The translations under genes and the position numbers were made by a program. Below, piece after piece: positions 42,837 through 58,372 of a stretch of DNA of 64,000 bases. This DNA comes from Kordia algicida OT-1 (GTDB lineage: Bacteria; Bacteroidota; Bacteroidia; Flavobacteriales; Flavobacteriaceae): contig NZ_DS544873.1 in assembly GCF_000154725.1 (NCBI RefSeq), positions 4,189,085-4,253,084 of the forward strand, written 5' to 3'. Position 1 is the first letter of the stretch, and each line of letters starts with the position of its first letter. The notes under the pieces are model-generated. The model ran no database searches. It was not told the DNA's origin and saw only the letters and a list, made by a program, of their open reading frames with translations.

Positions 42837-42837
42837 A
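42787..42837 (+). promoter_or_regulatory. 11-bp inverted repeat overlapping the recombinase start codon
   Basis: TTAAAACTTCC (42787-42797) is the exact reverse complement of GGAAGTTTTAA (42827-42837), which includes the AGGAAG ribosome-binding site and the A of the ATG. In mRNA a hairpin with a 29-nt loop would sequester the start; as DNA it could be an operator. Confidence 0.5.
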
Positions 42838-44123
42838 TGAAAGTAACAGCAGTTTTTTATAGAAATAAGTATTGGTATGAAGTTGAAATTCATCGAACGG
42901 ACAAGAGAATTGAGCTTATCAAGACTTATGCTAATTCAAAATGGTCTCAAAAGAATAAAAAATGGCTGTTTCCTAAAAATGAAGCTTCAAGAACATTTCT
43001 AAAATCTATTGCAAGGCAATCAAAAAAAGAAGTTACATTTATTATTCTCAAAGGAAATAGACTCCGCATCACTTGTCATCCTACACAAAAAGGAATTAAG
43101 TTTATTAAATCCCTTAGCTATTATTACTATAATTCAGCATATAAACATTGGACAATTCCCTATACAGAAATCAATACTGACACATTGGAATCGATACTTG
43201 AAAACAACTATAAAATCAATTACATTGACAAAAGAGAAAAAAGAGCTAAAAAGTCCTGTAAAACCAAAGTATTAAGAGAACATCAAAGAGATTGTCCTAA
43301 CATTGTAATTGATAAATTAAAAGCATTGCGTTACAGTGAATCAACCATCAAAATTTACAAAAGTTTTCTATCAATTTTTTTTACATATCACTATGCTTAT
43401 GAACCTCAAGAAATTACCAATGAAATGATTAGGACGTACATGCGCTATTTGGTTCAAGAAAGAGAGATAAGTGAATCCTATCAAAATCAAATGATTAATG
43501 CCATAAAATTCTATTATGAAAAAGTTTTAGGAGGAAAACAGCAAACCTATTTTATAGACCGTCCAAAGAGAAGCAAGCCATTACCTATTGTACTTTCACA
43601 AAAAGAAACTATTCAATTACTCAAATCTATTCCCAATTTAAAACATAAGACTATTTTAACTGTAATTTATAGTTGTGGTCTGAGAGTTAGTGAACTCATT
43701 GATTTAAAATTATCATCTATTTATTTAGAAGAAAATAAAATACATATTGTAGCTGGTAAAGGAAAGAAAGACCGTTACGTGACTTTAGCGGTTAGAACTA
43801 AGAAACTCATAAAAATTTATATAAAAAAATATGCTCCAGAACACTATCTAATCGAAGGGCAAAAAGGAGGGAAATATGCAACATCAAGTATTCAAAAATT
43901 TATAAAGAAATATAGTAACGAAGCAGGTCTTACAAAAAATGTAACTCCTCATACACTCAGACATAGTTTTGCAACTCATTTATTAGAAAAAGGAATCAGC
44001 CTACGATATATACAATACATATTAGGACATCAAAATTCAAAAACTACAGAAATCTATACACATATTACACAAACGGGTATTGAAAACATTAAAAATCCGT
44101 TGGATGATTTTGACTTTAAGTAA
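42837..44123 (+). CDS. Tyrosine recombinase with IntI-like tail and N-terminal tandem domain
   Basis: The 428-aa protein has the full tyrosine-recombinase catalytic set: Arg283 (SCGLRVSELI), Lys308 (GKGKKDR), His372-x-x-Arg375 (PHTLRHSFATHLL), His398 (LGHQNSKTT) and Tyr407 (IYTH). It ends GIENIKNPLDDFDF, similar to the SPLD tail of integron integrases, but the IntI-specific insertion before the HxxR motif is absent. A SAM-like core-binding domain covers ~150-240. The first ~125 residues are two related ~55-aa repeats, each with IELIK/IKFIK and a K.W.(F/I)P motif (KKWLFPKN, KHWTIPYT), which I do not recognise from other integrases. It lies directly before the first cassette in the same direction. 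Confidence 0.9.
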   Translation: MKVTAVFYRNKYWYEVEIHRTDKRIELIKTYANSKWSQKNKKWLFPKNEASRTFLKSIARQSKKEVTFIILKGNRLRITCHPTQKGIKFIKSLSYYYYNSAYKHWTIPYTEINTDTLESILENNYKINYIDKREKRAKKSCKTKVLREHQRDCPNIVIDKLKALRYSESTIKIYKSFLSIFFTYHYAYEPQEITNEMIRTYMRYLVQEREISESYQNQMINAIKFYYEKVLGGKQQTYFIDRPKRSKPLPIVLSQKETIQLLKSIPNLKHKTILTVIYSCGLRVSELIDLKLSSIYLEENKIHIVAGKGKKDRYVTLAVRTKKLIKIYIKKYAPEHYLIEGQKGGKYATSSIQKFIKKYSNEAGLTKNVTPHTLRHSFATHLLEKGISLRYIQYILGHQNSKTTEIYTHITQTGIENIKNPLDDFDFK

Positions 44124-44184: not shown

Positions 44185-44217
44185 ATATACCGAATTCGGT
44201 ATATACGTACGTTGCCC
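44185..44217 (+). other. attI-like site: 20-bp palindrome next to the first cassette core
   Basis: ATATACCGAATTCGGTATAT (44185-44204) is a perfect 20-bp palindrome, 6 bp before the core GTTGCCC (44211-44217) where the first cassette begins. Unlike the sites between cassettes there is no left arm or long stem, as expected for the primary insertion site (attI) of an integron. The role is inferred from position and symmetry. Confidence 0.5.
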
Positions 44218-44268
44218 ACAATTAAAAAAAACGCCTGTGAATACTAATACACTAAAAAAAGACACATT

Positions 44269-44853
44269 ATGTTTATGATTCCTTTAGGGTTTGTGATGTT
44301 CGCCATCATAATATATATTTTAGTTTCAAATAAACGTGCTGAACGTAAATTGATAAGTGAAGCACGTTCGAAAAAACCAGTAAGAAGAGTTACAGTAGAT
44401 AGTTTGCCAAATAATCAATTTCCAAAACAAAATAGTAGTTCATATGTAATAAATGAAATTTTCAATACAGAACAAAAATTGGCAGTAACTGCTTGTTTAG
44501 AAATGATTTCATCTGTTGGAAGTAATAATGTAAATACTGCTAAAAGACAATCTCAAAAAATTCTGATTGCTAAAATTTTAAGCAAAGATTTTAATTTAGA
44601 CCAAGAGCGTTGGAATAGTTATTCAAATGATTTAACACCTTCTTCTGTTCAAGCAACAATGCATTCCCTCGATTCAAAAGGAAAAAGATTTTTCTTCTCA
44701 TTCGTTTTTGATTTATTGGCTAAAGGTGGTATTCCTTCTCAAAAAGAGATTATGGTAGCGGAAAATATTTGTGAAAAAGTCGCAGGAATATCAAATTATA
44801 CATTTGAAAAATTTATGGACGAAACAGATAATATGTTAAATTCATTTAATTAA
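44269..44853 (+). CDS. Cassette 1 gene A: single-pass membrane protein
   Basis: The 194-aa protein begins with one hydrophobic helix (MIPLGFVMFAIIIYILVSN), then a basic stretch and a helical domain of ~120 residues (e.g. EQKLAVTACLEMISSVGSN, FFFSFVFDLLAKGG) that vaguely recalls TerB-like helical bundles. No family is certain. It is the first ORF after the presumed attI site and so closest to any array promoter. The next gene follows after 8 nt. Confidence 0.7.
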   Translation: MFMIPLGFVMFAIIIYILVSNKRAERKLISEARSKKPVRRVTVDSLPNNQFPKQNSSSYVINEIFNTEQKLAVTACLEMISSVGSNNVNTAKRQSQKILIAKILSKDFNLDQERWNSYSNDLTPSSVQATMHSLDSKGKRFFFSFVFDLLAKGGIPSQKEIMVAENICEKVAGISNYTFEKFMDETDNMLNSFN

Positions 44854-44861
44854 AAATAAAT

Positions 44862-45128
44862 ATGTTCAAAGAAAGATTAAATATAAAGTTCAAAGAGTTT
44901 TACGAAGCGAAAGACATTGTTTCAGCGAAAGAACTTTCGAGTGAAATACTAAATATGCTAAATGAAAAGGGACTTATTGTTTACGAAAAAATAGCTGGAT
45001 ATGATAGTTTGTATATTCAAGTATTTGACAAATATCTTTCTAAATTCGGACTTGAACCAAATCCATTTTATAAGGAATTAGATTTTATTCGTTTTGGTTT
45101 AATTTCTCAATTCAAACACGACAAATGA
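44862..45128 (+). CDS. Cassette 1 gene B: hypothetical 88-aa protein
   Basis: A small, mostly helical cytosolic protein (FKERLNIKFKEFYEAKDI ... DFIRFGLISQFKHDK) with no recognised family. It begins 8 nt after gene A, so the two are co-translated and form a two-gene cassette. Partner proteins or an immunity-type pair are possible, but there is no direct evidence. Confidence 0.6.
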   Translation: MFKERLNIKFKEFYEAKDIVSAKELSSEILNMLNEKGLIVYEKIAGYDSLYIQVFDKYLSKFGLEPNPFYKELDFIRFGLISQFKHDK

Positions 45129-45159
45129 TTGAAAAAATCGTTTGACGGAATATAACTGT

Positions 45160-45291
45160 GGGCAACACCGTATAAAATTAATTGCTGGTTTTAGCCTACT
45201 TACGAAAGTCCTCGCGGACTTTCTATCTGTGATTTATTTGCTAAATTAGGTTCTTAAAACACGCAACTAATCTTATACAACAACGTTAGCC
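45160..45291 (+). other. attC-like site 1 (132 bp)
   Basis: Runs from GGGCAAC to GTTAGCC. Arms GTATAAAATTAATTGC and GCAACTAATCTTATAC pair at 14 of 16 positions; both mismatches are A-C on the top strand and T-G on the bottom strand. The tip carries a perfect 8-bp hairpin GAAAGTCC-TCGC-GGACTTTC. Confidence 0.8.
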
Positions 45292-45316
45292 ACAATAAAA
45301 ACCAACCATTCAAAAT

Positions 45317-46993
45317 ATGTCATTTGAAAGAACAATTAAAGTAGCTTTTGACAAAATATCAGGTGAAATTCTTGAAGCAAATGAGGTTTTTGAAACTGCG
45401 AAAAGCGGATTTGAAGTCCGAAAACAATTTCATAAAGACGAAGTTGAATTATACTGTTGTGAATGCACACAGAAACTTAATGTTTCAACAAGTAAGAATG
45501 ACCGACTTCATTTTAAACATCAGCCAAAAGCAAAATATTGCCTTTTAAAAGATTCAAAGTTTTCACCAAAAGAAACAGACGAATTAACGAAAATTTATAA
45601 ATCCAAAGAAAGCGACAGACACAAAGAATTAAAAAACAAAATTGCACAAAGAATATCAAAAATAAAAGGTGTTTCTTCAATAAACGTAGATGATAAATTT
45701 ATTATAAACGATAATGAAAAAAGAAAGCCAGATGTCTTTTGTGAATACAAAGGCAAAAAATTAGTTTTTGAAATTCAGCTTTCAGATTTATCGTTAAGAT
45801 ATATAATTAGTCGTTACGAGTTTTATAAACGTAATGGAATGTATCTAATATGGATACTTGACAATTTTGATGTTCAAGGTCAAAATCAAACAGAAAGAGA
45901 TATAAAGTATTTAACAGAATATCAAAACTTCTATAAATTAGACGAAAACACGAATGATTTTAGACTTCTTTGCACATATAAATTTCCTTTTTTAGTTGAA
46001 AATAACAAGTTACTGACCAAATGGATTGAAAAATCAATTAGCCTTTCACAATTAAAATTTGATAAAGAATTATATCAAGCCTATTATTTCGACTTCAAGA
46101 AAAAATTAGAACTTAAAGAAAAGGAAAGACTAAACAACATTAAGAAAGAAGGAAAAGCTGAAGCCGAAAGAAAAAAAGCAAGAAAATTAAACAAGGCAAA
46201 AGAAAAAGCTGAAGAAATTATTGATGATTTAAGGTATTTATGGAAAACTGAATCATTTTATTTTAAACCAATAAAAGATAGAATTTTTGAATTAAACGAA
46301 TTTGAGTTAAAGATACTTAACGAATCAAAAGCATTTAAAGAAGAAGAAAATCAGCCTAAAATTCATAAATGGTTTTCTATAGCAAAAAGAAACAATTACC
46401 ACTTTTTAGAATTTATGCTTGACTGTCAATATCTTGACATTGATGTGAATAAAAAATCCAAAGAGCAAAAAAGTCTATTTCAAACATTGTTTGAAAATAA
46501 AGAATTAGAACACGGAAAGTATTTATCAAGATTAATATTAAAAAGAGGTTATGTTTTTACAAAAACTGACGAGCCAATTATTCAAAATTGGTACTCAACA
46601 GAAAAAGAAAAACAATCTGAACTATTATTACATTATCTATCTAATAAACTAAATAGCAAATATTTAATAGACAAGTTATTTGAACATCGAAATTTAATTT
46701 GTACAATTGAGAGTGCAAAGAGAAATGAAATTATTGGTTTTGGTTTTAAACCAAATCAATGGATTGCTTTTGCAAATAATGCAGTCCATTCATATAAAGA
46801 ATATTGGGATTACATAGAAATAGCATTTAAACATTACGGAATTTGGGATAAACTAATCGAATTAGATAAGAAAGGAACTTTTAATAAAAAAGTAACTGCA
46901 TTTTATGAAGAAAGACCAAAAGCAAAATTTGATTGTGATTTGCTTTTTCAAATTTTATATCCCGAATTGAATAATGAAAATTACTGTGGCTAA
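45317..46993 (+). CDS. Cassette 2: CoiA-like / DUF6035-type PD-(D/E)XK nuclease
   Basis: The 558-aa protein opens with a zinc-ribbon-like cluster, Cys47-x-x-Cys50 ... His65-x-x-His68 ... Cys75, followed by a nuclease core with KPDVFCEY (Asp139) and KLVFEIQLSDL (Glu152-x-Gln154), the layout of competence protein CoiA and the DUF6035 family. YRSRYEFY-like residues (ISRYEFYKRNGMYLIWIL) continue the fold. The C-terminal ~250 residues are helical and Lys/Glu-rich and unknown. CoiA-type nucleases act on DNA in competence or defence; a defence role is inferred from the cassette setting. It ends inside the border of attC 2 (the stop is within GGCTAAC). Confidence 0.75.
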   Translation: MSFERTIKVAFDKISGEILEANEVFETAKSGFEVRKQFHKDEVELYCCECTQKLNVSTSKNDRLHFKHQPKAKYCLLKDSKFSPKETDELTKIYKSKESDRHKELKNKIAQRISKIKGVSSINVDDKFIINDNEKRKPDVFCEYKGKKLVFEIQLSDLSLRYIISRYEFYKRNGMYLIWILDNFDVQGQNQTERDIKYLTEYQNFYKLDENTNDFRLLCTYKFPFLVENNKLLTKWIEKSISLSQLKFDKELYQAYYFDFKKKLELKEKERLNNIKKEGKAEAERKKARKLNKAKEKAEEIIDDLRYLWKTESFYFKPIKDRIFELNEFELKILNESKAFKEEENQPKIHKWFSIAKRNNYHFLEFMLDCQYLDIDVNKKSKEQKSLFQTLFENKELEHGKYLSRLILKRGYVFTKTDEPIIQNWYSTEKEKQSELLLHYLSNKLNSKYLIDKLFEHRNLICTIESAKRNEIIGFGFKPNQWIAFANNAVHSYKEYWDYIEIAFKHYGIWDKLIELDKKGTFNKKVTAFYEERPKAKFDCDLLFQILYPELNNENYCG

Positions 46994-47116
46994 CAACGTG
47001 TATAGTTAATTGCTACTAAGTGCGTACTTTTGAATTCCTGCGGAATTCAAACTATTTGTGTACTTGATATTTAATCGCTAAATTTACGCAACTAACCATA
47101 CACAAACTCGTTGCCT
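46988..47116 (+). other. attC-like site 2 (129 bp)
   Basis: Runs from GGCTAAC to GTTGCCT. Arms GTGTATAGTTAATTGC and GCAACTAACCATACAC match at 14 of 16 positions with the same two A-C mismatches. The tip is a perfect 10-bp hairpin TTTGAATTCC-TGC-GGAATTCAAA (47029-47051). The stop codon of cassette 2 overlaps its first bases. Confidence 0.85.
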
Positions 47117-47520
47117 TTCATTAAAAAAGACAAACTTAAAATTGAGTGAAAAAGACGCTTAAACTGCTGATTTCTCACGCTGAACTCAAAAAAATAAGTT
47201 AAAATCAAATTAGAATACAGAATTAGACACGTGATTTTTTTTGCGATTTATGAGTACGATTTTGAATTGAAAAATAGAAGGCTGATTTCGACTATTAAAC
47301 GCGGATTAAAAATGAGTGACGATTCTAAAAAATACGCTGATTTGAAAGCTAACCATGAATAGTGGAGACGATTTTTTTTATGGATTTTTACAGTCTGAAA
47401 TGAAATTTGAACTTTAAGAATTTAAAGGGCAAAAGAAAATCCACTCAGAACGCAAAGGAGATTTTTAGCAAGTGTATGGAATTAAACGATGAATTTACAG
47501 AAACGTGAATAATAAACGAA
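47117..47520. other. Cassette 3 body: no gene (ORF-less cassette)
   Basis: About 400 bp between two attC-like sites has no ORF longer than 16 codons on the plus strand and none of note on the minus strand. The start GTTGCCTTT (47110) and end AAAGGCAAC (47528) still pair, so it is a formally intact cassette. It could be a decayed gene, carry a promoter or encode an RNA. Confidence 0.6.
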
Positions 47521-47521
47521 A

Positions 47522-47716
47522 AGGCAACACTGTGTATAAAACATAGCTGGTAATTGAGAAACTAGATGTTTGTGCTTATTTATTAAGTCCACCAAATCTT
47601 TGATTTGGTTCTTTATTGTTGACAAAATAATGTCCAAATCAAAGATTTGGCTAATTGATTAACTAAAAAATTTTTATATATTTATACGCTACGATTTATA
47701 CACGGAAACGTTGGCT
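47522..47716 (+). other. attC-like site 3 (195 bp)
   Basis: Runs from AGGCAAC to GTTGGCT. Arms GTGTATAAAACATAGC and GCTACGATTTATACAC match at 14 of 16. The longer tip contains CCAAATCTTTGATTTGG (~47591) and its exact reverse complement CCAAATCAAAGATTTGG (~47634), a nested 17-bp inverted repeat. Confidence 0.75.
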
Positions 47717-47750
47717 GTAATGTAAAACGACATTTGCGAAAACAAAGAAA

Positions 47751-48218
47751 ATGACTCAATCTGAACTTATAATTTTAAATTTTACAGAAATAAGGAGAAG
47801 AAGTATAAAACTTTGGAATGGACTACCTGAGAAATATTATAATTGGAAACCTGACGAAAAAGCAATGAGTGCGTCAGAAATGATAAGACACGTTTTGGAG
47901 GCTGATTATGGATGGAATATTATTATTAATCAAGGTGATATGACAAATTATAAAACACCTTGGGAAAACCGACCATTCATTAACGTAACTGACGAACTTG
48001 AATTTGCGGAACCTTATAGAAAAACATTTATAGAAAGTGTATGGCAATTTTCGGATACGGAATTAAACGAAGCCGAAATCATTCATCCAGGGAACGGAGA
48101 AAAGAAAATACTTGGAAAATATTTATTGCGGATTGGATATCACGAATCAGTTCACGCAGGACAATTTTTGTCGTATTTAAGAGCAATGAAAATTGATAGA
48201 CCAAAAATATGGGATTGA
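47751..48218 (+). CDS. Cassette 4: DinB family metal-binding protein
   Basis: The 155-aa protein has the four-helix DinB fold with the His triad His47 (MIRHVLEAD) and His131/His135 (GYHESVHAGQF) for a divalent metal. Members include damage-inducible proteins and thiol-S-transferases such as BacA-like enzymes; the substrate here is unknown. It is the only gene of its cassette, 35 bp from the core GTT. Confidence 0.82.
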   Translation: MTQSELIILNFTEIRRRSIKLWNGLPEKYYNWKPDEKAMSASEMIRHVLEADYGWNIIINQGDMTNYKTPWENRPFINVTDELEFAEPYRKTFIESVWQFSDTELNEAEIIHPGNGEKKILGKYLLRIGYHESVHAGQFLSYLRAMKIDRPKIWD

Positions 48219-48229
48219 AAAAACACTAC

Positions 48230-48361
48230 AGCCAACACTGGCTATAAGTAATTGCTTAGGCTTGGGCTACATCTGAAAATTTCTGCGAAATTTTCAGTTT
48301 GGTGTGTACTTGCAAAAGTTGTACCTTAGTCACGCAACTACTCATAGCCTAACCGTTACCC
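48230..48361 (+). other. attC-like site 4 (132 bp)
   Basis: Runs from AGCCAAC to GTTACCC. Arms GGCTATAAGTAATTGC and GCAACTACTCATAGCC match at 14 of 16 with the two conserved A-C mismatches. The tip is a perfect 11-bp hairpin CTGAAAATTTC-TGC-GAAATTTTCAG (48273-48297). Confidence 0.85.
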
Positions 48362-48377
48362 AACATTTGACCAAAAA

Positions 48378-49385
48378 ATGAGAATAAGCCAATTTCAAAA
48401 ATATTCGCAAAAAGAAAATACCGTCACAAATAATGTCTTGTTGATGCTATCAAGATTAAATGACCTAAACATTGGCTATTACAAATCAATAATCGAACGA
48501 CTAAACGAAGGCAATATCCAGCAATATTATTATCCTCAACCAATTTTCACTCAACAAATCGGAATGAAAAAGGGGATAATAGACGGACATATTGAAGTAA
48601 AACCCTCAAAAATAGTTATTGAAACAAAGTTAAATAGTACTGAATTTATCGATAAATTAATTAAGTACGGCAAAGTATTTAATGAGAATAGTCAAAATCA
48701 ACTTTGGCATTTAAGTTCGGTTAAATTTAATGACAGTGAGGTAACAGAAATTAACACTAGACTTAAGCAGTCATATCCAAAACTGAATATTCAATTCAAT
48801 AATTTACTATTCAATGATTTGCTTGAAAATTTAGAAGGCATTTATGAAGAGAATACTCACGATATGGAATTGCGACTACTTCTTGACGATTTTAGCAATT
48901 ATTGTATTGAAAGTAATTTAATATCTGACGAGGAATATAAATTGTTGTTTGTGCCAACAGGCTTTTCATACAATTGGAACAAAAAGCATAAAATATATTA
49001 TTGTCCAACTCATTGGCACAGTCAAAAATTTAAGTTCTTTGGTCTTTATAATTGGAAATCTGTTAGGACAATTTCTGAGATTGAAACAACAATTATTGCG
49101 GACTATGATGCTGATACAAACAAATTAACTCTTCATAGCAAAGGTCATACGGATGACCAAATAAGTCGATTGAAAAAAGGACTTACGGAATTGGATGAAA
49201 ACCATTATGGATTAAAATATTATATTTTACCTGAACGAAATACATTTGATACTGACTTTAAGAAAATTTCTCGTGGAGGAATTCAAGGGTATAGATATAA
49301 AGACCTGCGAGACTTTTTGACACTCGGTGAATATACTGACGTTGAACGCATTGCAGAGGAATTAAGAAAAGTAAGATGGAAATAA
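48378..49385 (+). CDS. Cassette 5: predicted PD-(D/E)XK nuclease-fold protein
   Basis: The 335-aa protein shows a restriction-endonuclease-like core: KKGIIDGHIEV with Asp69 and KIVIETKLN with Glu82-x-Lys84, followed by a helix. Residues 150-335 form an unrecognised domain containing a CPTHWHS segment and a C-terminal YKDLRDFLTLGEYTDVERI. It may be a single-protein defence nuclease, but no family is known to me. It starts 16 bp after the core GTTACCC and ends 8 bp before the next. Confidence 0.65.
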   Translation: MRISQFQKYSQKENTVTNNVLLMLSRLNDLNIGYYKSIIERLNEGNIQQYYYPQPIFTQQIGMKKGIIDGHIEVKPSKIVIETKLNSTEFIDKLIKYGKVFNENSQNQLWHLSSVKFNDSEVTEINTRLKQSYPKLNIQFNNLLFNDLLENLEGIYEENTHDMELRLLLDDFSNYCIESNLISDEEYKLLFVPTGFSYNWNKKHKIYYCPTHWHSQKFKFFGLYNWKSVRTISEIETTIIADYDADTNKLTLHSKGHTDDQISRLKKGLTELDENHYGLKYYILPERNTFDTDFKKISRGGIQGYRYKDLRDFLTLGEYTDVERIAEELRKVRWK

Positions 49386-49392
49386 AAACGTT

Positions 49393-49580
49393 GGGTAACA
49401 ACGTATATAGCTCATAGCTAATTAGTTGCTTATTCGAAGTTAAGGCATATTTGCAAGTCCGCCAAATTTTTTAATTTGGCTTATTGAGAAAAAAGATAAT
49501 AAGAAAATTAAAAAATTCGGCTCGTGCTTAACCGAAAATTTATCGCTAATTTGCACGCTACGAGCCATATACAAGACCGT
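49393..49580 (+). other. attC-like site 5, interrupted by an IS at its right core
   Basis: Begins with GGGTAAC. Arms GTATATAGCTCATAGC and GCTACGAGCCATATAC match at 14 of 16. The right core GTTGTGC is split: GT ends at 49580 and GTTGTGC is restored at 51230 after the IS and its CCGT duplication. The tip includes GCCAAATTTTTTAATTTGGC and a Glu/Ala-free AT-rich stretch. Confidence 0.8.
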
Positions 49581-51227
49581 CAGACTGTCTCAAAACTCGC
49601 ATATTATTTTCTATTAATATTAAATATTCCGATATTTAAGTATGGAATATTTAAAAGGTGATTCGAGAACACAACTTACATTATACACTACTTGTCTTGA
49701 AGATATGATACCTCAAGATAATTCTGTACGATTTATAGATAAATTTGTAAACTCACTTAATTTACAAGAATTAGGTTTTGACGCCATAGCTTCTCAAGGA
49801 AGACCGTCTTATGATCCTGCTGATTTACTAAAATTATACATTTACGGGTATATGAATCGTACACGATCTTCACGAGTTTTAGAAAAAGAATGCTCCCGAA
49901 ATATTGAAGTGATATGGCTTTTGAAAAATCTTAAACCAGACCATAATACGATAGCGCGTTTTAGAAAAGAAAACTCAAAAGCTATCAAACGAGTTTTCAG
50001 ACAAAGTGTAACCATTGCTAAGAATTTTAACCTGATTGGTGGAGTTCTTATCGCTGGTGATTCCACCAAATTAAGAGCGCAGAATAGCAAGAAAAACAAT
50101 TATAATAAGAAAAAGATTGAACGTCATTTAGCGTATATTGATAAAAAACTATCGCAATACAATACTGAATTGGCTACTGCTGATAATGATAGTAAAGTTA
50201 AAATTCAGAAAAACATTGAAAAACACAAACGACATCAAGTTAAGTACACGCAGATAAAGCAAGAATTAGAAGCTGATACTACTACTGAAAACCCTCAATT
50301 ATCTACTAGCGATCCAGATAGCAGACATCAAATAGTAAGAGGAATGATAACAGAAGTTTGCTATACGGCACAAACTACTGTTGACGAAAAACACAACATA
50401 CTTATTGATTATAAAATCACCAATCAAAACGATAAGAAAGCCATGGGAATGATGCTCAGAAGAGCTAAATCTATTTTAAGACATCATCAGTTTACTGCCC
50501 TTTATGACAAAGGATATCATACAGGTAGTGAATTTGATATTGCACATTCGTTAGGTATCGAAACATTAGTTGCTATCCCTAATATTGGCAGAGCCAGTCA
50601 AGCCCCTGACCCTAAATATAATGTAGAATATTTTAAATATGATAAACACAAAGATTGTTATATATGCCCACAAAAACAAGAACTAACAAGTAATCAAAAT
50701 TGGTATAAGGCACGTAACTATAAGTTCAAACAATACAAAACCAAGGCGTGTAAAACTTGTCCTGTTAGAAACTTATGTACAACAGCTAAAGTAAATGGAA
50801 AGATCGTGCAACGAAGTGAATATGCGCATGCTATTGAAGGCAATGCAGAACGTATAAAAGTTAATGAAGATACCTACAAAAAGCGACAAGCTATCGTAGA
50901 ACATCCCTTTGGAACCATCAAAAGACAATGGGGATTTGATTATATCATTACTAAACGGACAATTGAATCGGCTTCAGCTGATTTTGGATTAGTTGCTTTA
51001 GCCTACAATTTGAAAAGAATCATCAATATTGGCAAAGCTTCAAAGAGTACCAAAAAACTTTGTTTGTGTCATTTTAGGAGGGTAAATCGCTTATATAAGC
51101 CCAAAAAGAGCATTATTAGCGTGTTAAAATCATTATTTTACAAAAGACAAGAAGTCTTTAAAATAGCTACGTAATTTTAAAATTTAATGTAAATTAGAAA
51201 CCTAATAGGTAGTTTTGAGACAGACTG
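49581..51227 (+). mobile_element. IS1182-family insertion sequence with 4-bp target duplication
   Basis: Ends are the inverted repeats CAGACTGTCTCAAAAC (49581-49596) and GTTTTGAGACAGACTG (51212-51227), 15 of 16 matching. CCGT is duplicated on both sides (49577-49580 and 51228-51231). The element is 1647 bp with one intact transposase gene, so the insertion looks recent. Confidence 0.9.
49642..51174 (+). CDS. IS1182 family transposase
   Basis: The 510-aa protein begins with the N-terminal DUF772-type domain (YLKGDSRTQLTLYTTCLEDMIP ... PADLLKLYIYGYMNRTRSSRVLEKECSRN). It has a DDE catalytic domain with LIAGDSTKLRA, ALYDKGYHTGSEFD and VEHPFGTIKRQWGF (the E), and a Cys cluster ACKTCPVRNLC. Length and layout are complete, so it should be active. 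Confidence 0.93.
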   Translation: MEYLKGDSRTQLTLYTTCLEDMIPQDNSVRFIDKFVNSLNLQELGFDAIASQGRPSYDPADLLKLYIYGYMNRTRSSRVLEKECSRNIEVIWLLKNLKPDHNTIARFRKENSKAIKRVFRQSVTIAKNFNLIGGVLIAGDSTKLRAQNSKKNNYNKKKIERHLAYIDKKLSQYNTELATADNDSKVKIQKNIEKHKRHQVKYTQIKQELEADTTTENPQLSTSDPDSRHQIVRGMITEVCYTAQTTVDEKHNILIDYKITNQNDKKAMGMMLRRAKSILRHHQFTALYDKGYHTGSEFDIAHSLGIETLVAIPNIGRASQAPDPKYNVEYFKYDKHKDCYICPQKQELTSNQNWYKARNYKFKQYKTKACKTCPVRNLCTTAKVNGKIVQRSEYAHAIEGNAERIKVNEDTYKKRQAIVEHPFGTIKRQWGFDYIITKRTIESASADFGLVALAYNLKRIINIGKASKSTKKLCLCHFRRVNRLYKPKKSIISVLKSLFYKRQEVFKIAT

Positions 51228-51264
51228 CCGTTGTGCGTCACTCAGAAAAACGACCAAAAGATAA

Positions 51265-52080
51265 ATGGACTATCAAACATTTGAACCACATTCTAACCTA
51301 AAATCACTTGTTAGTTGCTATTGGACTTTGGAAGTGCCCAAACAGTCTGAACCGCAAAAACAACGAATAGTACCTGATGGTTGTATTGAAATGGCGTTTA
51401 TTCTCGGAGATGATATAAAGCGGTACACTTCCAAAAATGAATTTATACTTCAACCTCGCGCAATGGTACTCGGACAAACAATTGAACCTTTTTACATTGA
51501 GCCAACGGGATATGTTAAAACATTTGCTGTCCGATTTTATCCATATGGATTTGCAAACTTTGTTTCTGAACCAATCAGCAATTTGGTAAATAAAGAAACA
51601 CCTTCAAGCAAACTTTTTAAAAAGGAAATCGCAGATAATTTAGAACAAAAAATTGTTAAAGCTGAAAACACGGAACAACGGATAAGCATTATCGAAAAAT
51701 TTCTTTTGGAAAGACTTAATGATGAAAAAACGATAAATAAAATCGTAAAAAACACTGTAGATTCCCTTTTATCCACAAGCGGAAGTGTTTCAATAAATTC
51801 AATCCTCAAAGACAATTTGTCAAAACGGAGACAACTTGAAAGAAACTTCAAAAAGCAAATTGGAGTAAGTCCTAAACAATTGGGAAAAGTAATTCGATTA
51901 CAAACCGCTTTAAAAATGTTGCTTAACAAAAAGTCAGAGAATCTGACAGATATAGCCTACGAAAGTGAATATTTTGACCAAGCACATTTTATAAAAGACT
52001 TTAGAGAATTTACAGGAATAAACCCCAAAGAGTTTATCAATCACGAAAATTTAGCTCTTTCCGCACTTTTTTACAAATAG
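51265..52080 (+). CDS. Cassette 6 gene A: AraC-family transcriptional regulator
   Basis: The 271-aa protein has a DUF6597-like N-terminal domain (LVSCYWTLEVPKQSEPQKQRIVPDGCIEMAFILG) and two C-terminal AraC HTH motifs (ILKDNLSKRRQLERNFKKQIGVSPKQL and LTDIAYESEYFDQAHFIKDFREFTGINPKEF). Effector and target are not known. It lies just after the IS and shares the cassette with the VOC gene 75 bp downstream, which it may control. Confidence 0.88.
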   Translation: MDYQTFEPHSNLKSLVSCYWTLEVPKQSEPQKQRIVPDGCIEMAFILGDDIKRYTSKNEFILQPRAMVLGQTIEPFYIEPTGYVKTFAVRFYPYGFANFVSEPISNLVNKETPSSKLFKKEIADNLEQKIVKAENTEQRISIIEKFLLERLNDEKTINKIVKNTVDSLLSTSGSVSINSILKDNLSKRRQLERNFKKQIGVSPKQLGKVIRLQTALKMLLNKKSENLTDIAYESEYFDQAHFIKDFREFTGINPKEFINHENLALSALFYK

Positions 52081-52155
52081 TTTAAGGGTGTCGCATTTTT
52101 ACAATTTCAAGCGACTTTCTACCGCTAATTTTGTTCCGTCAACAACGGACATAAA

Positions 52156-52650
52156 ATGAAAGGAAAAATATTTATCACAATTATGGCTTTGACCCTTGGT
52201 ATTGTATCCTGCAAAAACAAAGGAACTTCTGATATGGAATCAAATCCTACTAAAGAGACAACAATAAAAAACGACAAGAATATGAACAGTTTTATATCAA
52301 TATTTGAGATTCCAGCAACGGACATTTCACGAGCCATTAGTTTTTACAAAAAGATTTTAGGAGTAGAAATTGAAAGATTAGATTTCCCGGGAATAGAAAT
52401 GGGCTTATTCCCATACCAAGACCAAATGGTAACAGGAGTTATTATGAAAGGAGAAGGTCACGAACCTTCTGCCAAAGGAGTTACTATTTATCTGAATGGC
52501 GGAGACAACTTGCAAACGATTCTTGATAAAGTAGAAGGAAATGGCGGAAAGATTATTATTCCTAAAACACCACACGCAGACGAAAATGGATTTTTTGCTA
52601 TTTTCCACGACTCAGAAGGAAACAAAATCGGACTTCATTCGCCAAATTAG
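52156..52650 (+). CDS. Cassette 6 gene B: VOC-fold lipoprotein
   Basis: The 164-aa product has a lipoprotein signal with Cys19 (LGIVSCK) and a ~25-aa linker. A VOC domain starting MNSFISIFEIPATDISRAISFYKK follows, ending FFAIFHDSEGNKIGLHSPN. The internal Met at ~43 could start a cytosolic form, but the signal peptide makes the longer start likely. The usual metal ligands are not all obvious. Binding or modification of a small molecule is inferred from the family. Confidence 0.82.
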   Translation: MKGKIFITIMALTLGIVSCKNKGTSDMESNPTKETTIKNDKNMNSFISIFEIPATDISRAISFYKKILGVEIERLDFPGIEMGLFPYQDQMVTGVIMKGEGHEPSAKGVTIYLNGGDNLQTILDKVEGNGGKIIIPKTPHADENGFFAIFHDSEGNKIGLHSPN

Positions 52651-52664
52651 GAAAAAGAGCGAAC

Positions 52665-52794
52665 GCATAACATTGTGTATAAGCAATAGCGGTTTAAGTG
52701 CAAACTTGAACCGTTTTTGCGTTTATTTAAGTATATTGCTTACCTAAAAGTAGTAGCTATATATCCGCTACTGCTCATACACTCAACGTTGGCA
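52665..52794 (+). other. attC-like site 6 (130 bp)
   Basis: Runs from GCATAAC to GTTGGCA. Arms GTGTATAAGCAATAGC and GCTACTGCTCATACAC match at 14 of 16 with the two conserved A-C mismatches. The tip stem CGGTTTAAGT-GCAA-ACTTGAACCG pairs with one G-T. Confidence 0.8.
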
Positions 52795-52847
52795 GCAAGT
52801 GCAACAACCAAGTACCCGAATATCAACAATAGGATAATTATCAAAAA

Positions 52848-55800
52848 ATGAATTGGAAAATTTTTGGTTTAAAATACGACAATCAAGAAACTTGGGCATT
52901 TGAACAAATGTCTTATCTACTTTTCTGTGCAGAATTTGATATTAGAATTGGATTATTTCGTTACAAAAATCAAACTGGAATTGAGACAGAGCCAATTGAA
53001 AAAGGTGGAAAATATTATGGTTTTCAATCTAAATATTATACAACCTCAATCGCTGTCAACAAAGACGACATTATTGATTCAATCAAAAAAGCTAAATCCA
53101 AAAACAAACAATTAGACGAGTTACTTTTCTACATCAACCAAGAACTTTCAGAGAGCACTACTAAAACCAAAAAGAAACCGCAGTATCAATTAGATATTGA
53201 GAAAGCCGCTAAGGCAGAAGGAATTAATATTCAATGGCGAGTTCCAAGTCATTTTGAATTACAATTGTCTTTGCCAGACAACAAATATATTAATGACATT
53301 TTTTTTAGCCTTGACCCAAATGAAGGAGATTTGCTTGATGAAATTTCTAAACACAACGAGAATATTTTACAAGCAATTCAAACAGAAATATCATTCGGGG
53401 ACAAACAAATTAAAATTGATCGAAGTTCGGTTGTTGAAGCAATAGCAAATACTTCTCAATCGAAAAAAAACATAATTATTTCAGGTGAAGGTGGTTGTGG
53501 TAAAACCGCAATTTTCAAGGAATATTATAATTCTTATTTTAACAAAATACCAATTTGTGTTTTTAAAGCAAATGAACTTAATGTAAATCACATTAACGAC
53601 ATATTTCATTTTGACAACAAATTTACATTTGCACAGTTTCTCAATACCTACAAAGATGAACCACTTAAAATATTTGTAATTGATTCCGCAGAAAAACTCG
53701 CAGAGATTTCTAACAACGATATTCTCTCTAAATTAATACAAAAGTTAAAAGAGAATGCTTGGAATATCATATTTACAACACGCTACGCTTATCTTAATGA
53801 TTTAACTTTTCACATCAAGGAGAATTATCAGTTGCCATTTGACGTGAATAATGTTTCTTTGATTAGTGCTGATGAATTAAAATCAATAGCAGATGAATTC
53901 AAATTCTCACTTCCCGACAATCAAAAATTCTTAGGACGCCTTAGAAACTTGTTTTATTTAAGGGAGTATGTTCAACAATATTCAAACATTGACAGACAAG
54001 GAAACTATAATGGATTTATTGATTTGCTTTGGAAAAAGAAAATACAAAACACTGTTCAAAAAGACAACCTGCATCTTGAAAGAGAAAGGTGTATTATCAG
54101 CATTGCCAAACAAAGATGTGAAACAGGAAGATTTTATATCAATGCAGACAGTTTACCACAAACAGCATTATTTCAATTAAAACAAGACGAAATACTTGGA
54201 TATGACGACGCACATAATGGATATTTCATTACTCATGACATTTATGAAGAATGGACGTTGGATAAAATAGTTTCCCGTAGTTTTTCAAATTATTTAAACA
54301 TAAAAGATTTTTTTAACGACTTAGGAAATTCATTACCTATTCGCAGAGCATTTAGATTATGGTTATCTGACCATTTATATGCAAAAAGTAAAGAAATAGA
54401 AAGTTTTATTCAAGGTGCATTTACCAACGTTGAGGTAACACAATTTTGGAAAGATGAAATTTTAGTTTCTGTTTTATTGTCGGATTATTCTGAGACGTTT
54501 TTTAATTTTTTCGAGAAGGAAATCATTGCAAATGATTTTAAAATACTAAAACGTATTTTGTTCCTGCTAAGAATCGCCTGTACTGATATTTCAGAAATTC
54601 AAAATTTTGAAATTATAAAACCTAAAGGCAAAGGTTGGGAAGAAGTAATTACGCTTATTTACAAACATAAAATTGATTTTTTTGATAGTAATTTAAAACT
54701 TGTTTTACCAATATTAACTGATTGGTGCGACTTCAACAAAACAGGACAAACAACAAAATACGCAGGCTTGTTAGCATTGAGTATAGTTCAAAAAACTGAA
54801 ACTGAAGAAAACTTCTATATGCACGAAGTTGCAGAAGAAAATATTTTGAAAGTGGTTTTCAATGCTGCCAATGAATTAAAACCAGAATTAAAAGAAATTT
54901 TTGACAAAGTAGTTTCTAATATATGGACTGAACACAGACACCCATATGCAGGACTTTGCTCTAAAATTATAGAGAAACCATACATAGCAACTGAATTAAT
55001 TAAAACACTTCCGCAATCTATTATTCAATTGTGTGATTTATTTTGGCAAAAACAGCCGAAAAAGCAAGACAGATTTGGATATGATAGAGACACAATGGAA
55101 AGTAGATATGGATTAGCAGGAAAACACCAATTCAATTATTTTCCTTCAAGTGCTAATCAAACACCAATAAAATGGTTATTACAAATAGAATTCTACAAAA
55201 CAATTGATTTTATCATAGATTTTACGAGTAGAGCCGTTGAATCTTTCAGTAAATCTGATTATGGCAAAGAAGGTGTCACAAAAGTTATAATACATATAAA
55301 TGAAACGGAAATAACCCAGTATTCAAGTGGTGCTATATGGAGTATGTATCGTGGCAATGGAAGCCCTGTTGTTCCAAACCTATTGCAGTCAATACATATG
55401 GCATTAGAAAAAACTCTTTTAGAATTTTCTCAAATCTTAAAGTCAGAAATAATTCAGAAAATACTTCTAAGAATTCTTACTCAATCAAAATCTGCTTCTC
55501 TTACTTCGATTGTTTGTAGTGTTGTACTTGCAAATCCTGATAAATTCTACGATATAGCTTTAATTTTATTTAAAACAATTGAATTATTTCATTTAGACAC
55601 ATTTAGATGCACAAATGAGTTTCAAGCTAAATCTCTGTATTCAATAGGATATGGAATGGATAAAATGAAAGATATTTTATATGCAGATGAAAGATTGAAG
55701 ACTTGTGAGGATAAACATAGAAGTTCAAATTTGGAATCATTGTTTTTAAATTATCAGCTTTTTGGTGTAAAAGGATTTACAGAAGAACAAAATTCTGAAT

Positions 55801-57539
55801 TCATTGAGAAATTGTATAAAATAATTGACCAACACAAGGCCAACGTTTTAACAAAAAAAGCATTTGGAATATTGTTGGCGAGAATGGATAGACGAAACCT
55901 TATTTCCAAAGTATCAAAACATGACGACAATAATTTACTAATAGAATTTAGTCCCAAAGAACTTTCTGATGAACATAGAAAGGAAAGTGAGCAAGCACAT
56001 AGTCAATACGAAGAAATGTTCAAGTATACATCCCTTAGATTATGGGCTGACTTTCAAGTAGGAAAGAGTAGCCAAACAAAAACAGAAAAACATCAGGACT
56101 ATGATAAGAATCCTATTTTAGCATTATCGGAAACCAAACAACTTATTGAAGAGCTAAAAACTGGACGAAATGGAATCGGAATTTTTGACTATTCCATACC
56201 TGCGTTTTCGTGTTCTAAATTATTAATTGAGCATAAAGACAAACTATCAGAAGAAGATAAGGATTTTTGCAAAGAAATAATTCATTCTTCTCTATCTAAT
56301 CTTTTTGCCGATAATTACGACTATCAAATAAGTGACGGGGTTGAAGTATCTGTCCATGCCATTCCAGTTCTAATAAATGAATATTCGGAAGAAACAGAAA
56401 ATTATATTTCGATCATGGTTTTGGCTCTTTTGGATAAAACATCTATCGGAGCCTATAAAAGAATATGTGATTACGTCATTGAATCAATTCACAAATCAAA
56501 ATTGTGGGAACAAAATCCAAAAATTGCTCAATCAATTTTATTTGGATATATAAAATTCCAACCTATTTACAAAGATATTATTGCGGAAATAAGGAAAAAA
56601 CAAGGTTGGGGGCGAATTTCTAAAAGCTCGATTTTAGAAGAATTGGAAAAGACAAATTCTGATTTTATTTTTGAGAATATCTCATTTGATATAAACGATA
56701 TTTCTTCACTTGACATTCATGGTTTGGAAATAGTTCTTCAATTAATTCCTTCCAACACTAAAGATAAAACTCACTTAGATATCTATTCTAAATCTTTGCC
56801 CTTTTTGGCACCACAGTTGCTCAAAGATAGGAGAAGTTACAAAGATGATTCGGGAGATGATTCCAACATTTATTCTTTACGGTTACATATTTTCAAGAGG
56901 TTCGCATATTTCATTTTAGAAAGAGATAAAAGCGAAATTGACATATATCTTAAACCATTTGTTGATTCGTTTTCTTCAACAGAAGAAACAGCGTCATTTA
57001 TTTCAGAATTAGTAAGTGCAGAAGATTACATAAACAAGTATGAACAATTTTGGCACATATGGAACAATCTATATCCTAAAATAATCGAACTATGTTCAAA
57101 TCCACTTGGCTATCATTTAAAAGAAATTATAATTAATTACTTGTTCGCATGGCGTTGGTGGCGTGAAGGAATTGAAGAGTGGCGTAGCTTAAAAAAGGAA
57201 AATTTATCACTTTATACAAACGCTTCAAAAGAAATAGGGAACATTCCCGCTGTATTGTATTCTGTTGTCAAAGTTTTAAATTCAATCGGGAAAAACTTTG
57301 AAGACGAAGGTGTTGATTGGATTTATACAATTGTGTCAAACAACAAATCATTAAATCTTGACGATTTAGAATCAAACACTTTATACTACTTGGAAAAGTT
57401 TTTAAGAAAGTTTGTTTTCCTTAACAGACAAAAAATAAAAGAAGAAATAAAATTGAAAAACAAAATAATCCCAATACTTGATTTTATGATTGAACGAGGT
57501 TCTATTCATGGTTATTTATTACGAGAAAGTATTCTATAA
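52848..57539 (+). CDS. Cassette 7: nuclease-STAND NTPase (Avs-like antiviral protein)
   Basis: The 1563-aa protein begins with a PD-(D/E)XK/Mrr-like effector domain (~10-130: GIETEPIEKGGKYYGFQSKYY, with Glu46/48 and Gln60-x-Lys62). A STAND/NACHT-type ATPase (~195-470) follows with Walker A GEGGCGKT (213-220), Walker B KIFVIDSAEK (Asp279) and sensor IIFTTRY. The ~1050-residue C-terminal part is helical and repeat-like (LEQ, ARMDRR, RWWREGIEEW), as in sensor domains. This matches antiviral STAND (Avs) proteins, where binding of a phage protein triggers oligomerisation and nuclease activity. The phage trigger is unknown. It fills a 4.8-kb cassette, very large for an integron. Confidence 0.82.
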   Translation: MNWKIFGLKYDNQETWAFEQMSYLLFCAEFDIRIGLFRYKNQTGIETEPIEKGGKYYGFQSKYYTTSIAVNKDDIIDSIKKAKSKNKQLDELLFYINQELSESTTKTKKKPQYQLDIEKAAKAEGINIQWRVPSHFELQLSLPDNKYINDIFFSLDPNEGDLLDEISKHNENILQAIQTEISFGDKQIKIDRSSVVEAIANTSQSKKNIIISGEGGCGKTAIFKEYYNSYFNKIPICVFKANELNVNHINDIFHFDNKFTFAQFLNTYKDEPLKIFVIDSAEKLAEISNNDILSKLIQKLKENAWNIIFTTRYAYLNDLTFHIKENYQLPFDVNNVSLISADELKSIADEFKFSLPDNQKFLGRLRNLFYLREYVQQYSNIDRQGNYNGFIDLLWKKKIQNTVQKDNLHLERERCIISIAKQRCETGRFYINADSLPQTALFQLKQDEILGYDDAHNGYFITHDIYEEWTLDKIVSRSFSNYLNIKDFFNDLGNSLPIRRAFRLWLSDHLYAKSKEIESFIQGAFTNVEVTQFWKDEILVSVLLSDYSETFFNFFEKEIIANDFKILKRILFLLRIACTDISEIQNFEIIKPKGKGWEEVITLIYKHKIDFFDSNLKLVLPILTDWCDFNKTGQTTKYAGLLALSIVQKTETEENFYMHEVAEENILKVVFNAANELKPELKEIFDKVVSNIWTEHRHPYAGLCSKIIEKPYIATELIKTLPQSIIQLCDLFWQKQPKKQDRFGYDRDTMESRYGLAGKHQFNYFPSSANQTPIKWLLQIEFYKTIDFIIDFTSRAVESFSKSDYGKEGVTKVIIHINETEITQYSSGAIWSMYRGNGSPVVPNLLQSIHMALEKTLLEFSQILKSEIIQKILLRILTQSKSASLTSIVCSVVLANPDKFYDIALILFKTIELFHLDTFRCTNEFQAKSLYSIGYGMDKMKDILYADERLKTCEDKHRSSNLESLFLNYQLFGVKGFTEEQNSEFIEKLYKIIDQHKANVLTKKAFGILLARMDRRNLISKVSKHDDNNLLIEFSPKELSDEHRKESEQAHSQYEEMFKYTSLRLWADFQVGKSSQTKTEKHQDYDKNPILALSETKQLIEELKTGRNGIGIFDYSIPAFSCSKLLIEHKDKLSEEDKDFCKEIIHSSLSNLFADNYDYQISDGVEVSVHAIPVLINEYSEETENYISIMVLALLDKTSIGAYKRICDYVIESIHKSKLWEQNPKIAQSILFGYIKFQPIYKDIIAEIRKKQGWGRISKSSILEELEKTNSDFIFENISFDINDISSLDIHGLEIVLQLIPSNTKDKTHLDIYSKSLPFLAPQLLKDRRSYKDDSGDDSNIYSLRLHIFKRFAYFILERDKSEIDIYLKPFVDSFSSTEETASFISELVSAEDYINKYEQFWHIWNNLYPKIIELCSNPLGYHLKEIIINYLFAWRWWREGIEEWRSLKKENLSLYTNASKEIGNIPAVLYSVVKVLNSIGKNFEDEGVDWIYTIVSNNKSLNLDDLESNTLYYLEKFLRKFVFLNRQKIKEEIKLKNKIIPILDFMIERGSIHGYLLRESIL

Positions 57540-57572
57540 TGAAAAACGAAACAAAAAACAAGAAACACCAGC

Positions 57573-57596
57573 TGCCAACAACGGTAACCGTTGCAC
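57573..57596 (+). other. Collapsed attC-like site 7 (24 bp)
   Basis: TGCCAAC (57573-57579) and the core GTTGCAC (57590-57596) are separated by only ACGGTAACC-type spacer. CAACGGT-A-ACCGTTG is a perfect 7-bp palindrome. The 16-bp arms are missing. It is the end of the array and was either deleted or acquired as a short site; a transposase remnant follows. Confidence 0.65.
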
Positions 57597-57664
57597 AACC
57601 CAATAATTTTATAAAAAACAACTGATTTACATCTCTTTTAAGAGTGCTTTTCTTTTGAGTTTTC

Positions 57665-58372
57665 CTATGAAACCCTAAAATGAGCACGGCTTAAAATCAA
57701 GCTATAGTTGCCAAATAGTGTCTTTACTTTAAAAATGACCAACCCAAGCGATCTTGCTCCACTTTTTGCAGTTTTTGTAATGAATTTTAGGTATTTCTTC
57801 AAGTTATAAGCAATGCCAGCCATGTGCATGACTTTGTTTGCTTGTTTAATTCCTAAGGTGTTGATTTTCCGAAGTCCCATATATTCCTTTAGTGTTCCAA
57901 AGACAGGCTCTACCGTACTTTGCCGTTTTTTCTTCATATAACGACCTTGTTTGCTGTTGACTCTGGCAATAGCACGTTCATATTCCTCTCGGTAATAGGT
58001 AACGGAAAACTTCTTCTCTTTGGCTGTTTTTCTTAAACATTGTGAAGCCAATGGACAGCCTTTACATTGTCTGGATGAACTACGATATTCTTTCTTTTTG
58101 GTTTTGGTTCGATAATCTAAAAACACTTTCTTAAAAGGAATAATCTTTCCTTCTGGACATAGATAATGATCGTTTTCTTTATCATAAATAAAGTCATCTG
58201 GACCGCCTTTGTATGTTCCATGTGGTGGAATATAACTTGTAAGTCCCTGTGATTCTAAAAAAGCATAGTTCTCTCCGCTACTATAACCTGTATCGGCTAC
58301 TAAATGCTCCCATAACAATCCTGTTTTACGCAAACGTCGTTGTAATCGAATCGTAATATCTTGCGTTCAAAA
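57665..58372 (-). pseudogene. Truncated IS1182-family transposase (C-terminal part)
   Basis: About 230 C-terminal residues of a DDE transposase different from the complete one at 49642: ADTGYSSGENYAFLES, CKGCPLASQCLRKTA and VEPVFGTLKEYMGLRK, and the frame continues upstream to ~58370 before it is lost. No N-terminal half or left terminal repeat is seen, so this is a remnant. It abuts the end of the cassette array and may have caused its truncation. Confidence 0.8.

Follow-up and report, generated by a model that had tools for sequence, protein, structure and literature searches.

What function do two unrelated nuclease-like genes serve when they are carried in an array of gene cassettes? The question is raised by a stretch of 64,000 nucleotides (nt) from Kordia algicida OT-1 (NZ_DS544873.1, 4,189,085-4,253,084; hereafter the window, to which positions in the text refer), in which seven head-to-tail cassettes, all on the + strand, lie 3' of a tyrosine recombinase gene (42837-44123), integrase and array together extending from 42837 to about 57600. 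A preliminary description of this DNA had assigned a CoiA/DUF6035-like protein to cassette 2 and a 335-amino acid (aa) nuclease of no known family to cassette 5, and both open reading frames (ORFs) were found where it had placed them, at 45317-46993 and 48378-49385. The predicted products of cassettes 2 and 5 are very probably nucleic-acid-cutting enzymes. For cassette 5 we favour, at a probability of roughly 55%, the reading that its product belongs to a new sequence family of modification-dependent (type IV-like) restriction enzymes, the gene being carried, as is that of cassette 2, as cargo of an integron-type cassette; the targets are probably phages.

We consider first whether these units are true cassettes. 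Each has a G^TT core box at its start and its own attC-like hairpin at its end, the terminal site spanning 141-207 nt in most of them. When a cassette passes through a circular form, its recombination site is restored by joining the cassette's two ends; the start of a cassette is therefore expected to agree with the end of the same cassette but not with that of its neighbour. The own-end R-box matches of cassettes 1-7 are 9, 9, 7, 9, 9, 5 and 8 out of 10, against 2-6 for neighbours, and in a relative (genome G163) with 40 consecutive cassettes and 41 sites the own-end match averages 8.3/10, against 3.8/10 for other pairs. Because a generic hairpin score failed to tell sites from shuffled sequence, we adopted a covariance model, R1, built from nine attC-like sites. 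With E <1e-6 as the limit, it picks out 47 sites in the window and the G163 array, all of them on the same strand; its E-values are rough, as the calibration was shortened. Covariation was also found in the attC stem, where 96.5% of cells are paired and 94 double changes were counted against 25.5 after shuffling, a signal lost when partners were slid; this alignment was fitted to the R1 model and is hence biased towards the stem. In an unfitted MAFFT alignment of the nine sequences, eight stem pairs show double changes.

This is a genuine array of cassettes, with both nuclease genes as integron-type cassette cargo. It shares with integrons an integrase next to an oriented array, self-matched R boxes, attC-like hairpins and defence cargo, but has R boxes (GTTAGCC, GTTGCCT, GTTGGCT, GTTACCC) that fall outside GTTRRRY; recombination of the cassettes by the array integrase is a predicted function of integron type. 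Cassette leaders measure 22-59 nt, which suggests that expression probably comes mostly from upstream, and the 22-nt leader of cassette 5 leaves little space for a promoter of its own.

Searches of Pfam, NCBIfam, PADLOC and PHROGs gave no above-threshold match to the cassette 5 protein, in agreement with the earlier statement that it has no known family. A PDB sequence search gave no credible match, and PDB profile matches to a designed repeat protein and to plexin look spurious. More than 40 homologues were found, in Bacteroidota, Firmicutes, Shewanella and metagenome-assembled genomes (MAGs) of Spirochaetaceae and Melainabacteria. The D69/E82-x-K84 core that had been read from the single sequence holds across the family: E13, Q60, D69, E82 and K84 are invariant in all 47 usable rows of one alignment and in 35 of 35 rows of a second. 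The family is under strong purifying selection, with a ratio of nonsynonymous to synonymous substitution (dN/dS) of 0.05-0.07 where dS is measurable, most comparisons being synonymously saturated.

The PD-(D/E)XK core has the element order a-b-b-b-a-b, with the active site on strands 2-3. In the full-length model of the cassette 5 protein (predicted local distance difference test, pLDDT, 85.5), the predicted order of elements is a-a-b-b-b-a-b-a-b-a, with the PD-(D/E)XK order in residues 13-158, and D69 and E82/K84 lie on consecutive strands, as in PD-(D/E)XK enzymes; structure prediction, which had been suggested as a check, thus agrees with the nuclease assignment. The best structural match of this half is the small subunit of R.BspD6I (Z 8.8, root mean square deviation [rmsd] 3.6, 127 aligned), and others include Nt.BspD6I (Z 8.1), AF1548 (8.0), Can2 (7.3), FokI (7.1), MspJI (5.9) and Avs4 (5.8). 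On this model, the N-terminal half (about residues 4-165) appears to be a PD-(D/E)XK nuclease fold with an invariant active site, and DNA or RNA cleavage is predicted.

The C-terminal half (about residues 181-335), which reaches a pLDDT of 94.4 when modelled alone, is probably a PUA-like domain. All 50 structural matches listed for it belong to the PUA superfamily (ASCH, MJECL36, PH1033, EVE, YTH), and SRA is not among these 50. They include ZmASCH (Z 6.9, rmsd 4.2, 124 aligned), MJECL36 (6.8), the EVE domain of VcaM4I (6.7), YTH domains (5.3-6.1) and the reader of Thermococcus gammatolerans McrB (5.7). The top Foldseek rows include VcaM4I and the 5-hydroxymethylcytosine (5hmC) enzyme PD-T4-3, with E-values of just 0.1-0.8. 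When 33 members of the family were scanned singly, there was no Pfam match above cut-off, and none of the matches was to an EVE, ASCH, YTH or SRA family. Many PUA-superfamily domains read modified bases.

We propose that the C-terminal domain would bind a modified base (5-methylcytosine, 5hmC, N6-methyladenine or other) in phage or plasmid DNA that enters the cell, and that the N-terminal domain, probably dimeric, would cut close to it. The protein would be a single-gene, nucleotide-independent enzyme for which a partner methyltransferase is not required; this would fit both a one-gene cassette and the frequent location of homologues in or beside type I restriction-modification (RM) operons. 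A PD-(D/E)XK nuclease joined to a PUA-superfamily reader is the architecture of nucleoside triphosphate-independent modification-dependent restriction enzymes (PMC7897488), and restriction of modified DNA has been predicted for proteins that join a PD(D/E)XK nuclease to a YTH-like or EVE-like domain (PMC7641849). As in PvuRts1I and AbaSI, the nuclease comes first and the reader-like domain last in a single-gene PD-(D/E)XK protein without a methyltransferase (PMC7897488), whereas in MspJI the domain order is reversed. Cassette 5 differs from enzymes of the PvuRts1I/AbaSI/MspJI kind in having no detectable sequence similarity to them and in a C-terminus that is nearest to ASCH, EVE and YTH among the matches listed. 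VcaM4I (EVE-HNH) and YTH-McrB of T. gammatolerans have reader folds similar to the C-terminal domain of cassette 5, but the former has an HNH nuclease with the reader first and the latter a McrB motor instead.

Both families were found in defence-like contexts (type I RM, GmrSD and SEFIR for cassette 5; Hachiman-Shedu for cassette 2) and not in housekeeping operons; housekeeping contexts and lost catalytic residues, which the preliminary description had named as evidence against its proposal, did not materialise. In Aequorivita aquimaris the cassette-5 homologue is embedded in a type I RM operon, with hsdS before it and hsdR after it (HsdM-HsdS-homologue-HsdR). HsdR is also encoded near homologues in Lacrimispora, Clostridium sp., Anaerovorax and a Clostridiales MAG, HsdM in an Aquimarina MAG, a GmrSD_N protein in a Saprospiraceae MAG, a SEFIR protein in Acetivibrio and PDDEXK_4 proteins in two further loci. 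HsdR was found in 5 of 28 cassette-5 loci, against 0.1 expected (29 strong HsdR genes in 95.5 Mb), but of the four clostridial HsdR loci three have a common arrangement, which leaves about three independent cases.

That last point is one of several that weigh against modification-dependent restriction. At many of the loci examined no neighbouring gene is recognisable as a defence gene, and several homologues lie on phage-like or mobile contigs. The PUA-like call comes from structure, with Z below 8 and low Foldseek template modelling (TM) scores, and Pfam and PDB sequence profiles lend it no support. There is also no hint of which modification cassette 5 would read.

Cassette 5 may therefore be weighed against a second defence role, in which it is a nuclease that is not modification-dependent and whose PUA-like fold recognises RNA, a small ligand or a triggering protein, making it an abortive-infection or anti-plasmid nuclease. 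PUA-superfamily domains do bind RNA and other ligands, the structural neighbours of the nuclease half include the ligand-activated Can2 and Card1, and a position inside type I RM operons fits any role in DNA defence. The PUA and nuclease fusions studied to date, however, act as modification-dependent restriction enzymes (PMC7897488), and no partner gene is constant across cassette-5 loci; we regard this alternative as unlikely, if the most serious of those considered.

The distribution of the cassette 5 family is sporadic. In an order-level survey of a sample of 396 genomes, relatives were found in four of the 395 others (one of them weak); further relatives lie on two Macrococcus plasmids, at 34 loci in the species collection and on 10 IMG/VR contigs. 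The family is absent from the INPHARED phage records; a phage protein, A0A8S5N646, matches cassette 5 in fold (E 1.4e-10). On the mobile IMG/VR contigs L042, L045, L046, L049 and L050, some of which carry serine recombinases, a gene of about 320-340 aa lies directly 5' of the homologue and is a possible partner of it.

Some homologues are themselves cassettes. One of the 40 cassettes of G163 encodes a homologue with 61% identity; a homologue in a Bacteroidales MAG (84%) has an R1 site upstream and R boxes that match at 9/10; that of Confluentibacter (39%) lies within eight sites; and an attC-like site lies downstream of those in a Saprospiraceae MAG (39%) and Zeaxanthinibacter (25%). The R1 model gave no match at Firmicutes loci of the family. 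At locus L011 (about 270-1350) the homologue (83%) has matched R boxes and no attC-like site was found upstream; it may represent a cassette that entered the genome at a position other than an attC. In Shewanella aestuarii a gene 80% identical to that of cassette 5 has on either side a sequence judged by eye to be a classical Vibrio/Shewanella-type attC site (TATAAC...GTTATAC). That genome encodes a true IntI (347 bits), on a contig whose reported size differs from that of the cassette's contig, and the cassette-5 gene has a GC content near 30% there, against 39% locally. The simplest reading of these sequences is that single cassettes have been exchanged between phyla, in either direction as far as they can tell.

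Cassette 2 encodes a protein of 558 aa with a DUF7830 zinc ribbon, a PD-(D/E)XQ nuclease (CoiA_nuc/DUF6035) and a C-terminal DUF7829 domain. By curated thresholds it is a member of all four Pfam families, each match being above gathering (DUF6035 1.5e-84, DUF7829 6.8e-77, DUF7830 1.5e-17, CoiA_nuc 1.2e-10), in agreement with the CoiA/DUF6035-like assignment. We aligned it with five homologues that have 20-39% identity to the window protein; among the six sequences the zinc ligands C47, C50, H68 and C75 are invariant, as are E98, D139, E152 and Q154 of the PD-(D/E)XQ site, which bears out the zinc ribbon and D139/E152-x-Q154 core proposed earlier. The closest homologue (40%) is found in G163 outside its array, next to Hachiman and Shedu genes in the order HamA-HamB-SduA-homologue-593 aa, and the family is thus not integron-specific. 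The 593-aa protein of this operon (G163:C1:4441000-4455000) has no PADLOC match. On a Pontibacter plasmid the homologue lies upstream of an AbiEii-type pair and an ATP-dependent endonuclease gene, on a Rhizobium plasmid among SIR2, ASCH, EVE and DUF4365 genes, and on a Variovorax plasmid among mostly hypothetical genes. The family was found in one of 295 genomes surveyed, and IMG/VR holds no close relative. A literature search found no tested defence function for the CoiA_nuc, DUF6035, DUF7829 or DUF7830 families. From its domains and contexts we infer that the cassette 2 protein is likely a defence nuclease.

Might the two nucleases instead serve the cassettes or the mobile element, for example in processing single-stranded cassette DNA or in competition between elements? 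Members of both families are indeed found on plasmids, on phage or phage-like contigs and in integrons, all of them mobile DNA, but both families are rare, whereas array sites are near-universal in Flavobacteriaceae, so neither is needed for cassette movement; moreover, most homologues lie outside integrons, and we hold such an array-maintenance function to be improbable. Equally improbable is the chance capture of housekeeping or repair nucleases, with cassette 2 acting in competence as its CoiA_nuc match might suggest, since its CoiA_N score is below cut-off (12.7 against 26.3 bits), the cassette-2 homologues inspected lie in defence islands, on plasmids and in a phage and none in competence operons, and the distribution of both families is sporadic.

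The integrase that adjoins the array, a tyrosine recombinase, has 428 aa, of which about 150 form an N-terminal extension. Its score exceeds the cut-off of NF040815 (XerA-type) and falls below that of the IntI profile TIGR02249 (194.9 bits, cut-off 265), and the protein aligns in two pieces to TIGR02249 and to VchIntIA, skipping TIGR02249 positions 180-239. A roughly 30-residue insertion of the Shewanella IntI is absent from every array integrase shown in the alignment, and no match above the IntI cut-off was found among 21 relatives' genomes. In a tree the array integrases stand apart from the resident XerC/XerD with full support; the single IntI forms a long branch of unsure placement. R1 sites were found in 86 of 100 Flavobacteriaceae genera, about 60 of which have at least 10 sites, and related integrases lie at the array start where both are on one contig (G407, G455, G469, G417, G109). 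Across the phylum the sites were less frequent: the model found them in 24 of 80 genomes, and one genome outside the class has 15 sites.

The combination of a non-IntI array integrase with a spread over 86 of 100 genera is the most unusual part of the finding. The integrase possibly represents a large overlooked integron class of non-IntI lineage. IntegronFinder 2.0 found complete integrons in Bacteroidetes proper only in Salinibacter (PMC9024848). Our literature search, outside which most subscription journals lay, returned no paper on non-IntI arrays, and priority is uncertain. We put at about even odds the broader proposition that Bacteroidota, and above all Flavobacteriaceae, hold a widespread integron class with a non-IntI recombinase that IntI-based surveys have missed, that defence nucleases are among the cargo of its arrays, one group of them being a new modification-dependent restriction family also present in classical integrons of Gammaproteobacteria, and that defence cassettes thus move from phylum to phylum between two systems of recombination.

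The claim that the array acts as a store of defence functions stands in part. PD-(D/E)XK cores are indeed present in three of the six gene-bearing cassettes (2, 5 and 7), one of which belongs to an established defence family: the 'STAND protein' of the preliminary description, in cassette 7 (52848-57539, 1563 aa), is Avs4 (AVAST type 4) end to end (NCBIfam 2189 bits, cut-off 1500, full length 1-1579/1579; PADLOC agrees), unusual just in being an integron-type cassette. As a description of such arrays in general, however, the claim is overstated, as six gene-bearing cassettes are too few for defence enrichment to be claimed and only about five of the 40 cassettes of G163 are recognisable as defence or nuclease cassettes, the others encoding mostly small proteins of no known family. 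These five encode a KAP NTPase with GmrSD, a DUF4365 protein, an N6-methylase with a specificity subunit, a helicase with a PIN-domain protein (PADLOC matches to Mokosh MkoA/MkoC) and the cassette-5 homologue. According to a citing paper, integrons have already been reported as antiphage gene banks in Vibrio (Darracq et al. 2025, cited in PMC12409362); as portrayed there, the Vibrio chromosomal integrons resemble the Kordia array in carrying defence cargo, but the Kordia integrase is without the IntI-specific insertion.

The remaining window cassettes encode two small proteins of no known family, a DinB-like protein, and an AraC regulator with a glyoxalase. The first core site, on the attI side (GTTGCCCACAATT, 44211-44223), marks the beginning of cassette 1 and pairs at 9/10 with the end of that cassette, in which two small ORFs (194 and 88 aa, 44269-45128) precede attC-like site 1 (45154-45297; R1 model 128.1 bits). 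Cassette 2 ends in site 2 (46982-47122; 121.5 bits). Cassette 3 (47112-47520), which has no ORF of at least 70 aa, ends in site 3 (47516-47722; 98.7 bits), and cassette 4, with a DinB-superfamily protein of 155 aa (47751-48218; DinB_2, 1.3e-9), in site 4 (48224-48367; 115.3 bits). Site 5 (49387-49591; 75.5 bits) is split by an IS1182-like element and its end resumes at about 51226. Cassette 6 encodes an AraC-type regulator (271 aa) and a glyoxalase-superfamily protein (164 aa) at 51265-52650, followed by site 6 (52659-52800; 112.1 bits), and the Avs4 cassette ends in a truncated last attC half-site (AGCTGCCAAC, 57570-57600), which matches its own cassette start at 8/10. All these features are on the + strand.

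The element within site 5 (49586-51229) has near-identical inverted ends, CAGACTGTCTC and CAGTCTGTCTC, a CCGT repeat on each side and a transposase gene at 49642-51174 (+). A second IS1182-like transposase gene, truncated and degenerate (57665-58333, - strand), lies beside the broken last attC and probably marks the end of the array. Further attC-like sites lie far from the integrase on the same contig, at 1086405-1097358 (-), 1269785, 1732872, 2120175-2124365 and 2767280-2772528; these scattered sites resemble integrase-less cassette clusters.

If our reading of cassette 5 is correct, it would represent a new single-gene restriction family against modified phage DNA, of interest for phage biology and as a tool for the study of DNA modification. 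The 80% identity between a gene in a Bacteroidota array and one between classical-looking attC sites in Shewanella would show that single defence genes cross phyla as cassettes, and gene capture of integron type that does without IntI may be frequent in a phylum thought to be nearly free of complete integrons.

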